A stretch of 64,000 bases of DNA. Origin: Bradyrhizobium sp. ISRA430 (GTDB taxonomy: Bacteria > Pseudomonadota > Alphaproteobacteria > Rhizobiales > Xanthobacteraceae). The DNA lies in the NCBI RefSeq assembly GCF_029909975.1, contig NZ_CP094516.1, forward strand, positions 992,001 to 1,056,000, given 5' to 3'. How positions within the stretch are numbered: position 1 is the first letter of the stretch; the number at the start of each line of letters is the position of its first letter. The position numbers and the translations under genes are program-made. Shown here one piece after another: positions 41,634 to 49,385 of this stretch. The notes under the pieces are model-generated. The model had not been told where the DNA came from. It worked only from the letters and a program-made list of their open reading frames with translations, and ran no database searches.

Positions 41634-43544
41634 CTAGATCTCGATCTCCGTTCCGAACTCCACCACCTGTCCCGTAGGCACGCCGAAGAATGCCGCCGAG
41701 CGTTCGGCATTGCGCTGGAGGAAGGAGAACAGGCCCTCGCGCCACACCCACATGCCCGGAACGTCTTCACGCGGGATGATTGTCTCGCGGCCGACGTAAT
41801 AGGTGATGTCGGAGAGGTCGACGCCGGGCAGCTTGCCCTGGCGGCAGGCGAGCTTCAGGCCCTCGTAGATTGTGGGGTTCTGCATGAAGCCGTAATGCAG
41901 GACCACGCGGGTGATGCCGGGAATGATCTCGTTCACCTCGGCACGCTCCTCGTCGGCGATGTGCGGGGATTCCTCGATCAGCACGGTGACGAGCAGTACG
42001 CGTTCGTGCAGGACGCGGTTGTGCTTGACGAACTGCGTCAGCGCCAGCGGCACGCCTTTCGCCGCGGACGCCAGAAATACGGCGGTGCCGGGCAACCTCG
42101 CGCGGCACTTGTTGACCGCCGTCTCGATCAGGTCCTCTTCCGGCTGGCGCAGCTTGCCGCGTGCGGCCTCGACCAGCTTCACGCCGCCGCGCCAGGTCAG
42201 CATCAGGAAGGCGACGAGTCCGGCGAGCAGCAGCGGAAACCAGCCGCCCTCGAACAGCTTGATCGAATTGGCCGAGAAGAAGACCACGTCGATCGCGAAG
42301 AAGAAGCCGTTGACCGCGACCACGAGCCAGGGCGAATAGCCCCATTGGATCGCCACGAGCGCTGCGAGCAGCGTCGTGATCGCCATCAGGAGCGAGACCG
42401 CGATGCCATAGGCGCCGGCGAGCGCATCCGATGTGCCGAAGCTCAGGACGGCGCCCAGCGTTGCGGCGGCGAGCAGCCAATTCACCAGCGGCACGTAGAT
42501 CTGACCCATCGCGTGGCTCGTGGTGTGTCGGATCTGCATGCGCGGCAAGAAGCCGAGCTGGATCGACTGCTGGGTCAGCGAGAACACGCCTGAGATGATC
42601 GCCTGCGAGGCGATCACGGTCGCGACCGCCGAGAACGCAACCAGTGGATAATGCAGTGCGTCGGGGCAGAGCTGGAAGAATGGATTCTCGAGCATGCCCG
42701 GATCCGTGATCAACAGCGCGGCCTGGCCGAAATAGTTCAGCACCAGCGCGGGCAGGCAGACGGCGAACCAGGCGAGCCGGATCGGAAAGCGGCCGAAATG
42801 CCCCATGTCGGCATACATGGCCTCACCGCCGGTCACGGCCAGGAAGGCCGAGCCGAGAATCGCAAAGGAGACGTGGAAATCCTGATGGATCAGGAATTCG
42901 AAGGCATAGAGCGGGCTGAGCGCAGCGAGCACCGCCGGCGCCTTGACGATGCCATGGATGCCGAGCGCTGCCAGCACCACGAACCAGGCGAGCATCACCG
43001 GACCGAAGATGCGGCCGATGAAGCCGGCGCCCTGCTTCTGCATCATGAACAGCCCAACCAGGATGGCGATGGTCACGGGCACCACGACCGGCGCCAACGA
43101 GGGCGCATCGACCTTGAGGCCTTCGATGGCACTCAGCACGGAGATCGCCGGTGTGATCGCGCCATCGCCGTAGAGCAGCGCCGCGCCAACGAGGCCGACC
43201 ACTAGAAGCTGCGCGCGCCAGGTGCCGGGCTGGGCATGACGGGCATGCAGCAGCGCCAAGAGCGCGACGATGCCGCCTTCGCCGCGGTTGTCCGCGCGCA
43301 GGATCAGCAGCGCATATTTCAGCGAGATGATCAGCAGCAGCGCCCAGAGGATGAGAGACGCAACCCCCAGCACTGCGTCGTGAGTCACGGTGCCGCCATG
43401 GGCGGCCGCCTTGGCGGCTTCCTTCAGGGCGTAGAGGGGGCTGGTGCCGATATCGCCATAGACCACCCCGAGGGCGCCCAGGGTCATTGCAAGGGGCAGC
43501 GGATCAGGATGATGGCCGGAAGCGACTGCTGGCGTACTGGACAA
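41634..43544 (-). CDS. kup: Potassium uptake protein Kup
   Basis: 636 residues with twelve predicted membrane helices and the family signature LGALGVVYGDIGTSPLYAL at the start. The C-terminal cytoplasmic about 170 residues contain VLLVTVLIEESPHIADEERAEV and end in the GVPTGQVVEFGTEIEI motif of Kup. Start is TTG (43542-43544); GGGGGTCGCCG precedes it. It imports K+ with protons. Bradyrhizobium species often have several kup copies. Confidence 0.94.
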   Translation of the reverse strand: MSSTPAVASGHHPDPLPLAMTLGALGVVYGDIGTSPLYALKEAAKAAAHGGTVTHDAVLGVASLILWALLLIISLKYALLILRADNRGEGGIVALLALLHARHAQPGTWRAQLLVVGLVGAALLYGDGAITPAISVLSAIEGLKVDAPSLAPVVVPVTIAILVGLFMMQKQGAGFIGRIFGPVMLAWFVVLAALGIHGIVKAPAVLAALSPLYAFEFLIHQDFHVSFAILGSAFLAVTGGEAMYADMGHFGRFPIRLAWFAVCLPALVLNYFGQAALLITDPGMLENPFFQLCPDALHYPLVAFSAVATVIASQAIISGVFSLTQQSIQLGFLPRMQIRHTTSHAMGQIYVPLVNWLLAAATLGAVLSFGTSDALAGAYGIAVSLLMAITTLLAALVAIQWGYSPWLVVAVNGFFFAIDVVFFSANSIKLFEGGWFPLLLAGLVAFLMLTWRGGVKLVEAARGKLRQPEEDLIETAVNKCRARLPGTAVFLASAAKGVPLALTQFVKHNRVLHERVLLVTVLIEESPHIADEERAEVNEIIPGITRVVLHYGFMQNPTIYEGLKLACRQGKLPGVDLSDITYYVGRETIIPREDVPGMWVWREGLFSFLQRNAERSAAFFGVPTGQVVEFGTEIEI

Positions 43545-47516: not shown

Positions 47517-48542
47517 TTACGCCATCACGCGCTGCGGCAGCAGCTCTGCGATCTGCACCGCATTCAGCGCCGCGCCCTTGAGGAGCTGATCCGCCGCCAC
47601 GAACATCGAGATCGAATGCCCTGAGGGATCGCTGAGGTCCTTGCGGATGCGGCCGACCAGGACGTCATCCTGGCCCGAGGCGTCGACCGGCATCGGGAAG
47701 TAGTTCTTGGCGCGGTCGTCGACGATCTTCACGCCAGGGGCCTGCGCCATGATCGCGCGGACCTGATCCTCAGTGATCGGCTTCTCGCATTCGAAGGTGA
47801 TGGCCTCACAATGGGCGCGCAGCACCGGCACGCGCACGCAGGTCACGCCGACCGCGATCTTCTCGTCCTCGAAGATCTTGCGGGTCTCCTTGATGACCTT
47901 GGTCTCTTCGTCGTTGTAGCCGGTCTCGGGATCAACGGCCGTGTTGTGGTTGAAGAGATTGAAGGCGTAGGGGTGCGGCATCACCTTGGGCGTATAGACC
48001 TGCCCGTTGAGATTGGCGCGGGTGGACTCAACAAGCTCGTCCATCGCCGCCGCGCCGGCGCCGCTGGCGGCCTGATAGGTCGAGATGATCACGCGCTTGA
48101 TGCGGTTCCTCTGGTGGATCGGCCAGAGCGGCACCAGCGCGGTGATGGCGGCGCAGTTCGGGTTGGCAATGATGCCCTTGTGGTCGCGGATGCGGTTCGC
48201 GTTGATCTCGGGGATCACCAGCGGCACGTTCGGGTCCATACGGAACGCCGAGGAGTTGTCGACCACGACCGCGCCGGACTTGACTGCGATCGGCGCGTAC
48301 TTCCTGGAAATGCCGCCGCCGGCGGAGAATAGGGCGATGTCGACGCCGTCGAAGGACCGCTCAGTGAGCTCCTCGATGATGACATCCTTGCCGCGGAACG
48401 ACACCGTCTTGCCGGCCGAGCGGGCGCTCGCCAGCGCCTTCAGCTTGCCGACGCGAAAGCCGCGCTTGTCCATGGTGGCGATGAATTCGGCGCCCACCGC
48501 ACCGGTGACGCCGACAATCGCGACGACGGGATCGTTACTCAC
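47517..48542 (-). CDS. asd: Aspartate-semialdehyde dehydrogenase
   Basis: 341 residues from a GTG at 48540-48542. That start is preceded by GGAGGAGAAA, a strong Shine-Dalgarno; the ATG 12 nt further up overlaps the site itself and is unlikely. Rossmann motif VAIVGVTGAVGAEF, active-site Cys in NPNCAAIT, substrate Arg/His region CVRVPVLRAHCEAITFECE. The enzyme reduces aspartyl phosphate, the branch point to lysine, methionine, threonine and isoleucine. A threonine-rich leader peptide and terminator lie directly upstream, indicating attenuation. The PepSY gene lies farther upstream on the same strand. Confidence 0.95.
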   Translation of the reverse strand: MSNDPVVAIVGVTGAVGAEFIATMDKRGFRVGKLKALASARSAGKTVSFRGKDVIIEELTERSFDGVDIALFSAGGGISRKYAPIAVKSGAVVVDNSSAFRMDPNVPLVIPEINANRIRDHKGIIANPNCAAITALVPLWPIHQRNRIKRVIISTYQAASGAGAAAMDELVESTRANLNGQVYTPKVMPHPYAFNLFNHNTAVDPETGYNDEETKVIKETRKIFEDEKIAVGVTCVRVPVLRAHCEAITFECEKPITEDQVRAIMAQAPGVKIVDDRAKNYFPMPVDASGQDDVLVGRIRKDLSDPSGHSISMFVAADQLLKGAALNAVQIAELLPQRVMA

Positions 48543-48569
48543 TTTCTCCTCCATTGAGCTGCAGACAAC

Positions 48570-48601
48570 AAAAAAGCCCCGGACCATCGAGGGCGGGGCT
48601 T
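48570..48601 (-). terminator. Attenuator terminator in the asd leader
   Basis: Minus strand: AAGCCCCG (arm), 12-nt loop, CGGGGCTT (arm), continuing into TTTTTTG. The stem ends 28 nt before the asd start codon and begins 28 nt after the leader peptide stop. A C-G-G-G-G-C stretch in leader codons 15-17 is complementary to the GCCCCG in its first arm and could form an antiterminator. Confidence 0.85.
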
Positions 48602-48629
48602 CGGTAGAGCTGATGCGTTCAGTCGACGA

Positions 48630-48701
48630 CTACGCGCGCACGCCTCCCCGGGCCCCGAAGGCCGTGGTGGTTTTGGTCGTGCGTTTCGTGATCGTGAACA
48701 T
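48630..48701 (-). CDS. Threonine-rich leader peptide of asd
   Basis: A 23-codon frame that starts MFTITKRTTKTTT and ends at TAG (48630-48632). It has seven Thr codons (ACG or ACC) and one Ile within the first 13 positions. A promoter ends only 8 nt before its ATG, so the message would be leaderless. The intrinsic terminator and asd follow. The arrangement matches amino-acid leader peptides such as thrL: stalling at Thr codons under threonyl-tRNA shortage should favour an antiterminator. Lys codons at 6 and 10 may add sensitivity to lysine. Function is inference from architecture; no homologue search was made. Confidence 0.82.
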   Translation of the reverse strand: MFTITKRTTKTTTAFGARGGVRA

Positions 48702-48709
48702 GGCGGCGA

Positions 48710-48738
48710 CTTATGCGGGAGAGTTTTGCGCGCGTCAA
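48710..48738 (-). promoter_or_regulatory. Promoter of the asd leader transcript
   Basis: Minus strand TTGACG (48738 to 48733), 17-nt spacer, CATAAG (48715 to 48710). The predicted start falls at or near the A of the leader ATG at 48701. The -35 box lies about 40 nt after the PepSY stop codon. Confidence 0.7.
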
Positions 48739-48779
48739 TGGCCTTTCGGGGGGATTGTGGCCGCGGGCGGGACCTGCCG

Positions 48780-49385
48780 CTATTTGGTCCGGGCACCCGG
48801 AGGCTCGAGGATGACCTCCTTGAGATCGTCGCCGCTGATGACGACGATCGCGAAATTCAGCCGGCCGCGCTCACGCACGAGCCCGCCGCTGATCGCCTTG
48901 CCGGACGCCGCGCGCTCGGCGACGCGCACGGCATCCGCGAGGCGGTGCCGGATCGCGCCAAGCGCTGCGAGGTTGTTGCGATCCTCCGCGTCGAGTTGGG
49001 TCAGGGGCAGGGCGGCTTCGCCGCCGATGACTTCGCCGGTCGCGGCATTGATGGTGTGCCGCCAGATGCGGTCGTTGTGCAGGGTCTTCACCCGGTAGAC
49101 CGGCACGCCCGAGGCGCCGTCGAAGCTCACATCGGCCGTGGTCGCGCCGGCATGCCGTGCTTCGGCGATCGTCATGGCCTGACTCAGCGAGATCGTGGAG
49201 CTACGGAAGCGCTCGATCTCGCGGCTGACCTCTTGACGGTCGGCCTCGGCGTCACCGTCCGTTTCGTTGTGAAGGGCGGCGGGCGTGCCGCTGGTCGTGA
49301 CGATCGCGCGCGCCGGCGCCGCAACGAGCAGCGCCGCCAGAGCGATCGCAAACAATTGCCACGAAGTTCGTCTGGCTGTCGTCAT
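48780..49385 (-). CDS. Secreted PepSY-domain protein
   Basis: 201 residues. Signal peptide 1-27 (ending APARAIV). The rest holds two PepSY-like units: ISLSQAMTIAEARHAGATTADVSFDGASGVPVYRVKTL with the NAATGEVIGGE closure, and LAALGAIRHRLADAVRVAERAASGKAISGGLVRERGRLNFAIVVI. PepSY domains are thought to inhibit or chaperone secreted proteins. The upstream region carries an operator-like palindrome within a good promoter (49564-49594), so a TetR-type regulator may control it. asd lies downstream. Confidence 0.85.
   Translation of the reverse strand: MTTARRTSWQLFAIALAALLVAAPARAIVTTSGTPAALHNETDGDAEADRQEVSREIERFRSSTISLSQAMTIAEARHAGATTADVSFDGASGVPVYRVKTLHNDRIWRHTINAATGEVIGGEAALPLTQLDAEDRNNLAALGAIRHRLADAVRVAERAASGKAISGGLVRERGRLNFAIVVISGDDLKEVILEPPGARTK

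Follow-up and report, generated by a model that had tools for sequence, protein, structure and literature searches.

Aspartate-semialdehyde dehydrogenase (Asd) makes the branch-point intermediate for lysine, diaminopimelate (for the cell wall), threonine, methionine and isoleucine. In the enterobacterial thr operon, the thrL attenuator is composed of a Thr-rich leader peptide, with Thr and Ile control codons, and a terminator/antiterminator, placed before thrA-type genes. Meanwhile, the lysine riboswitch controls lysine-pathway genes by binding lysine directly, having no leader peptide. The classic comparative survey is that of Vitreschak (2004), which may mention asd. To our knowledge, apart from a suggestion made for the SEP5 frame of Sinorhizobium, no ribosome-stalling attenuator with lysine control codons has been described.

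Regarding rhizobia, the trpL/rnTrpL system of Sinorhizobium meliloti has a short leaderless uORF followed by a terminator that releases a small RNA, and in the available text of both reports it senses Trp and controls trpE(G) (PMC7298713, PMC10117765). The SEP5 sORF, also from Sinorhizobium, contains 6 Thr and 3 Lys codons, lies in the 5' UTR of a gene named as "aspartate dehydrogenase" and has been suggested as a leader peptide (PMC10117765). In the accessible portion of that report, the codon cluster of SEP5 is near the 3' end of the sORF, its conservation is restricted to Sinorhizobium and no RNA structure is given, all of which differ from the leader presented here.

The locus considered here was found in a 64-kb window (the whole stretch of DNA analysed) of an 8.56-Mb genome, a Bradyrhizobium judging by the named relatives nearest to it, and precedes an asd gene that we name asd2. 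As judged from sequence comparison and folding, it is most probably a ribosome-mediated transcription attenuator that responds when charged Thr-tRNA and Lys-tRNA run short, its target being a second asd gene. Similar to thrL, it has a Thr-rich leader peptide, a terminator/antiterminator and an aspartate-family gene; unlike thrL, the gene is asd and not thrABC, there are invariant Lys codons, Ile is not conserved, the start is of the leaderless type and there is no Rfam match. The control of the pathway is common to the lysine riboswitch, but here there is a leader peptide and, again, no Rfam match. It shares with trpL/rnTrpL the short leaderless uORF, the terminator and the rhizobial host, differing in its Thr/Lys codons and in the gene asd2. 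The initial annotation knew of no threonine attenuator on asd described in rhizobia, which holds only in part: no description of an asd2 transcription attenuator was found in the open-licence literature searched, and a Thr/Lys leader peptide, SEP5, had already been proposed in Sinorhizobium, as far as the available text of that report goes (PMC10117765). If the leader reads Thr as well as Lys, the Asd branch point would come under their joint control at the RNA level.

Layout of the asd2 locus

On the minus strand, the order of the elements is TTGACG, 17 nt, CATAAG, 8 nt, the leader ORF, the terminator and asd. A PepSY-domain gene is located upstream on the same strand, with its end 78 nt before the leader, and queA lies beyond asd on the opposite strand. 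The features, in window coordinates, are the following:

48733..48738, minus strand: -35 element TTGACG, conserved in relatives
48710..48715, minus strand: -10 element CATAAG, 8 nt 5' of the leader ATG
48630..48701, minus strand: leader peptide ORF of 23 codons, MFTITKRTTKTTTAFGARGGVRA followed by a stop, the ORF being present in 107/107 asd2 loci
48684..48686, minus strand: Lys6 codon AAA, proposed control codon, AAA in 89/89 distinct 23-codon leaders
48669..48674, minus strand: Lys10 AAA and Thr11 ACC, proposed control codons, each in 89/89
48634..48683, minus strand: predicted segment 1:2 (pause) pairing, CGCACG of codons 7-8 with CGTGCG of codons 21-22, and an inner GGCC hairpin (folding)
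48594..48656, minus strand: predicted antiterminator, GGGGC/CGG/GGAG/GTGCG of codons 16-22 with CGCAT/CTCT/CCG/GCCCC, before and in the first terminator arm (folding, cross-family swap test)
48570..48602, minus strand: predicted intrinsic terminator GAAGCCCCG...CGGGGCTTTTTT (folding; stem and T-run)
48547..48552, minus strand: Shine-Dalgarno GGAGGA of asd (sequence)
47517..48542, minus strand: asd2, aspartate-semialdehyde dehydrogenase, GTG start at 48542 (TIGR01296 asd_B above cut-off)

The 23-codon minus-strand frame with seven Thr and one Ile codon among its first 13, as initially annotated, is present at 48701-48630; its stop codon at 48632-48630 agrees with that description, and the GC stem with a T-run was found within 48602-48570. 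The asd gene is downstream with a Shine-Dalgarno, as claimed; however, 48542, given as the position of the latter, is the GTG start, and GGAGGA is at 48552-48547. The window leader also carries two Lys AAA codons, which had been given no weight. When ORFs of 10-60 codons in the 64-kb window were read from the first start, only the asd2 leader reached 9 Thr+Lys in 14 residues, one other ORF reached 8, and 10 dinucleotide shuffles of the window gave zero ORFs with at least 8. This second most Thr/Lys-rich short ORF of the window, at 42259 on the plus strand, is MIELAEKKTTSIAKKKPLTATTSQGE.

As seen in 25/25 Bradyrhizobium genomes searched, a close copy of the window asd (83-100%) is accompanied by a second copy about 45% identical, corresponding to the canonical-type asd. 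Outside Bradyrhizobium, a close asd2 copy occurs only in G105 (83%) in the family sample of 149 genomes, and asd2-like genes (57-79% identity) occur in 11/142 genomes of the class sample, besides the window's own. In a tree of 108 Asd proteins, the distant asd2 proteins and those of Bradyrhizobium form one group (support 0.993), from which canonical Asd is separate. A record titled Frankia sp. RB7 (L044) also holds a Bradyrhizobium-type asd2 locus with 94% identity, its label being probably wrong.

The canonical asd of Bradyrhizobium has no Thr/Lys leader in the three genomes examined (L140, L145 and L146), and Bradyrhizobium may retain both asd genes because only asd2 has the switch. Additionally, no convincing Thr/Lys leader was found at six loci checked in the same genome as the window (hom, two aspartokinase and three threonine-synthase-like genes); the aspartokinase locus L284 has only a 53-codon ORF with 6 Thr+Lys, at -392. 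The Thr-Thr-Lys-Thr-Thr codon pattern gave 6 matches in the own genome versus 16 for the backward control, and, among those 6, that of asd2 alone falls in an ORF shorter than 60 codons.

Conservation and codon choice in the genus-type leaders

The comparison comprised 107 asd2 loci, some genomes being present twice and two loci coming from G105, with 99 distinct upstream sequences. All 107 have CATAAG or CATATG with an ATG soon after and a short ORF, followed downstream by GGGGC or GGGC and then a T-run. Both the frame and the terminator are thus kept in 107/107. Regarding the promoter, TTGACG-17-CATAAG is jointly kept in 97/99 distinct sequences; CATAAG is found in 98/99, and the distance to the first ATG is 8 nt in 92/99. 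A sigma-70 scan with the E. coli consensus called no promoter at the locus; conservation did show one. With only 8 nt between the -10 element and the leader ATG, the transcript probably has little or no 5' leader, the start site being predicted from the promoter sequence. Moreover, since the promoter position is kept and no SD-like tetramer occurs between the -10 element and the leader ATG in 99/99 distinct sequences, the leader is probably translated from such a leaderless transcript. Translation from a leaderless transcript is described for trpL of Sinorhizobium meliloti in the available text of two reports (PMC10117765, PMC7298713).

Codon counts were taken over 89 distinct 23-codon leaders; the G105 leader, with 22 codons and a Gln at codon 6, is outside this set. 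Lys6 (AAA), Lys10 (AAA) and Thr11 (ACC) are invariant in 89/89, while Thr at codons 3, 4, 5, 8, 9, 12 and 13 varies. Some leaders have few Thr (3 in L098). Ile is not maintained in the leader: it occupies codon 4 in 3/89, where 65/89 have Thr, and codon 2 in 19/89. Parsimony counts, made on a tree of 72 representatives, gave 3 changes for both Lys codons combined, compared to 89 changes in the eight Thr-type codons (3-5, 8, 9 and 11-13), with a single change in Thr11. The Thr-type changes are distributed as 27, 29 and 33 over codon positions 1, 2 and 3, and this near-even spread indicates, therefore, that single Thr positions are not strongly held. The last Thr/Lys codon is 10-11 codons before the stop in 96/99 distinct genus-type leaders, and the other 3 also have a final Thr codon.

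The AAA codons of the leader are a marked departure, because the asd2 genes write Lys almost always as AAG (AAG 1327 and AAA 18, of 1345 Lys codons in the 72 representative genes). These observations bear on the possibility of a thrL-type attenuator sensing threonine only, in which the lysines are incidental. Thr is indeed the most frequent residue, with 7 in the window leader, but such a reading seems unlikely considering that variation affects most Thr positions but neither Lys6 nor Lys10, and that the leader Lys is written AAA against the AAG of the genes. The asd2 leader probably reads lysine as well as threonine, though AAA could be kept for low structure instead of lysine sensing.

RNA structures and distant asd2 relatives

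Folding of the leader predicts three structures: the terminator, the 1:2 pairing of codons 7-8 with codons 21-22, and a long antiterminator in which codons 16-22 join the sequence extending to the first terminator arm. The initial annotation had proposed two segments as partners of the first terminator arm: CGGGGC of codons 15-17 is predicted to pair there, but GGAG of codons 19-20 is predicted to pair with CTCT just before the arm. As we infer the mechanism, transcription would start at or a few bases before the leader ATG, and, when Thr or Lys is short, the first ribosome would stall within codons 3-11, hiding segment 1. Codons 16-22, left available by the stall, would then pair with the region reaching as far as the first terminator arm, and transcription would continue into asd. 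When both amino acids are plentiful, the ribosome would reach the stop and cover the last codons, the terminator would form and an RNA of about 130 nt would be released.

Stalled-ribosome folds, in which the ribosome was assumed to cover 12 nt beyond the A-site codon, gave the antiterminator in the pre-terminator RNA at the tested A-site codons 3, 5, 8, 9 and 11, whereas it was lost at 12, 13, 23 and 24. Lys10-Thr11 is the last tested position leaving the antiterminator arm free, because the antiterminator is lost at codon 12. The complete RNA favoured the terminator when the A site was at codon 3, 5 or 8, and the antiterminator when it was at codon 9 or 11. As the complete RNA keeps the terminator at the first three of these, the switch would need to be decided during transcription.

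In 72 aligned leaders, the paired cells amount to 99.1% for the terminator, 91.6% for the antiterminator and 91.2% for the 1:2 pairing, with 0, 2 and 4 pairs changed on both sides, respectively. Only the 1:2 pairing exceeds its own shuffles (7/500 for both-side changes), with a version slid by +1 scoring higher on two measures, and the covariation of the antiterminator within the genus was not above shuffles in these leaders. RNAalifold, run on the genus alignment, recovered the terminator together with small GGCC pairings, a single pair having changes on both sides. Within the genus, the predicted structure is conserved but not proven by covariation, and the latter, which the initial annotation had predicted, can hardly show where the pairing arms vary so little. 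An Rfam search of window positions 48300-49000, with E up to 1, gave no match to the leader, the only match being to a microRNA family, outside the leader and far below the cut-off.

Considering the distant relatives, a Thr/Lys leader lies upstream of 7/11 distant asd2 genes outside the order (L254, L255 and L259-L263), six of them reaching the threshold of 7 Thr+Lys applied elsewhere and the seventh, L262, having 6; no leader was found upstream of the other four (L256-L258 and L264). The hairpin is followed by a T-run in L254, L255 and L259 and has no T-run in L260-L263. In the seven leaders, the last Thr/Lys codon is 9-11 codons before the stop. AAA makes up 7/21 of their Lys codons versus 5/71 in their genes, so that AAA is not preferred over AAG there, though above the genes, and the bias carries over only in part; this lack of preference is in favour of threonine as the only signal. 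Behind the leader hairpin of L260, L261 and also L213, a second possible hairpin, GTCTCTC...GAGAGA, was seen by eye, taking in the likely asd Shine-Dalgarno, and transcriptional and translational control may be mixed at these loci.

With an E-value limit of 0.001, a covariance model of the genus leaders matched the window's genome once. Across the family and class samples, 11 matches reached at least 37 bits, all before asd2 as judged from their positions, and the model added two new asd2 leaders, in G442 and G508 (69% identity each). The leaders of L260, L261 and L263 were not among its matches, and full-length matches below 33 bits were mixed.

The predicted antiterminator pairings can be illustrated by GGGGCTGGG with CCCAGCCCC in L255 and GGGCTTCGG with CCGAAGCCC in L254. 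In a swap test over nine loci (the window, L117 and the seven distant asd2), each leader paired with its own downstream sequence summed to -270.2 kcal/mol versus -241.3 (sd 9.1) for permuted partners, with 78/50000 permutations as low. When the shared core GGGGC/GCCCC was masked, 2411/50000 were as low, a weak margin, and in neither its row nor its column does the pairing of the window with itself come first. A match of the antiterminator to its own leader across families is supported by these pairing energies. The initial reading of a threonine-sensing attenuator on asd stands as to the kind of element, given the frame and terminator in 107/107 loci, the promoter in 97/99 and the cross-family antiterminator match; sensing of Thr alone does not agree with the invariant Lys6, Lys10 and Thr11 and with AAA against the AAG of the genes.

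Two other explanations were weighed against these results. In the first, the main product would be a trans-acting small RNA or leader peptide, as with rnTrpL/peTrpL of Sinorhizobium, with the control of asd being secondary. Termination would yield a leaderless RNA of about 130 nt, a layout like that of rnTrpL as far as the available text describes it (PMC7298713). On the other hand, the Thr/Lys content and the pairing are kept across families and the rest of the peptide is not, and the strong RNA-model matches are all before asd2, which makes a trans-acting main product unlikely. In the second, a plain terminator would follow a conserved small protein, with no regulation by ribosome stalling, as could be suggested by the nearly invariant terminator and by the C-terminal codons conserved in the genus. 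The latter conservation is explained by the antiterminator, which those codons form, and neither the matched pairing across families nor the codon bias would be expected, so this explanation is very improbable. An attenuator reading Thr and Lys is then the preferred interpretation of the asd2 leader.

Thr/Lys leaders on other asd genes

The asd2 leader is not the only Thr/Lys leader found before asd genes, but one of a wider range. In the order, 142 distinct regions upstream of other asd genes were compared, most of these genes being canonical and a few second copies; a short ORF with at least 7 Thr+Lys in 14 residues is present in 59/142, versus 0/142 in the reverse complements and a mean of 0.6 in shuffles. 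Those are distributed as 3/36 in the window's own family and 56/106 elsewhere in the order, one of the 56 being a second copy. Outside the order, a Thr/Lys-rich ORF lies upstream of asd in 6/78.

From 58 matches (56 after a length filter), 45 non-redundant canonical-type leaders were obtained. In these, the last Thr/Lys codon is 0-5 codons before the stop; L268, from another deep Asd branch, has the long-type geometry, making the correspondence between geometry and subfamily imperfect. Thr accounts for 32.5% of their residues, again compatible with threonine as the only signal; Lys is also enriched (12.5% vs 5.6%), against that possibility, although these leaders were chosen by their Thr+Lys content. 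Moreover, Lys is AAA in 97/125 codons of the 45 leaders versus 60/458 in asd sequences. The gene downstream of SEP5 is presumably asd, in which case SEP5 would fit this canonical-asd class rather than the class of the window.

A hairpin with a T-run as terminator was also sought in the canonical-type leaders and was set aside, as the automatic finder gave only 3/59 and the 21 inspected show a different layout. Due to this different layout, sequestration of the Shine-Dalgarno was tested instead. Pairing between the sequence that follows the leader stop and the one that precedes the asd start is better than that of permuted partners (25/20000 as good, n=45), with the own partner ranking first in only 2/45 loci. 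In 28/45, at least 3 of 5 Shine-Dalgarno bases fall within the best pairing. These pairings suggest that the canonical class uses a translational platform. Rfam on 15 chosen canonical-type loci gave no leader family, the matches being a tRNA and two below the cut-off, all in L212. The leaders of two second asd copies, in G075 (L141) and G245 (L213), about 46-47% identical to the queries, are Thr/Lys leaders with a GCCCCG hairpin and no T-run, and may be intermediate between the two platforms.

At slightly less than even odds, a Thr+Lys leader is a general asd sensor in alphaproteobacteria, driving two platforms that track two Asd subfamilies. In asd2, control codons ending 9-11 codons before the stop would act on a terminator; in the canonical class, control codons ending 0-5 codons before the stop would allow the stalled ribosome to melt a hairpin sequestering the Shine-Dalgarno. 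Lys would be read through the rare AAA at least in Bradyrhizobium and in the canonical class. Such a system would couple a single codon sensor to two output devices and would exemplify the choice of rare codons for control positions.

Similar elements were noticed before other genes. In L362, L363 and L364, which come from the same family (genera g18 and g37), a GCCCCG-type terminator follows short ORFs such as MIIRIAHLASKYRGRFGAGDARAR, 35-39 nt before a dihydrodipicolinate synthase family gene, assigned by PF00701 in L362 and by eye in L363 and L364. Lying before another gene of the aspartate-pathway type, this element is possibly a further attenuator. In addition, L389 and L390, from two Bradyrhizobium genomes, have an attenuator-like element with the ORFs MIKSSRTFNRNHMTRFGWAVGGVAR and MIKCSRKVNFWNMTRFGWAVEGVVR and a terminator, that of L390 being located 42 nt before a 132-residue DUF1127 protein (PF06568).
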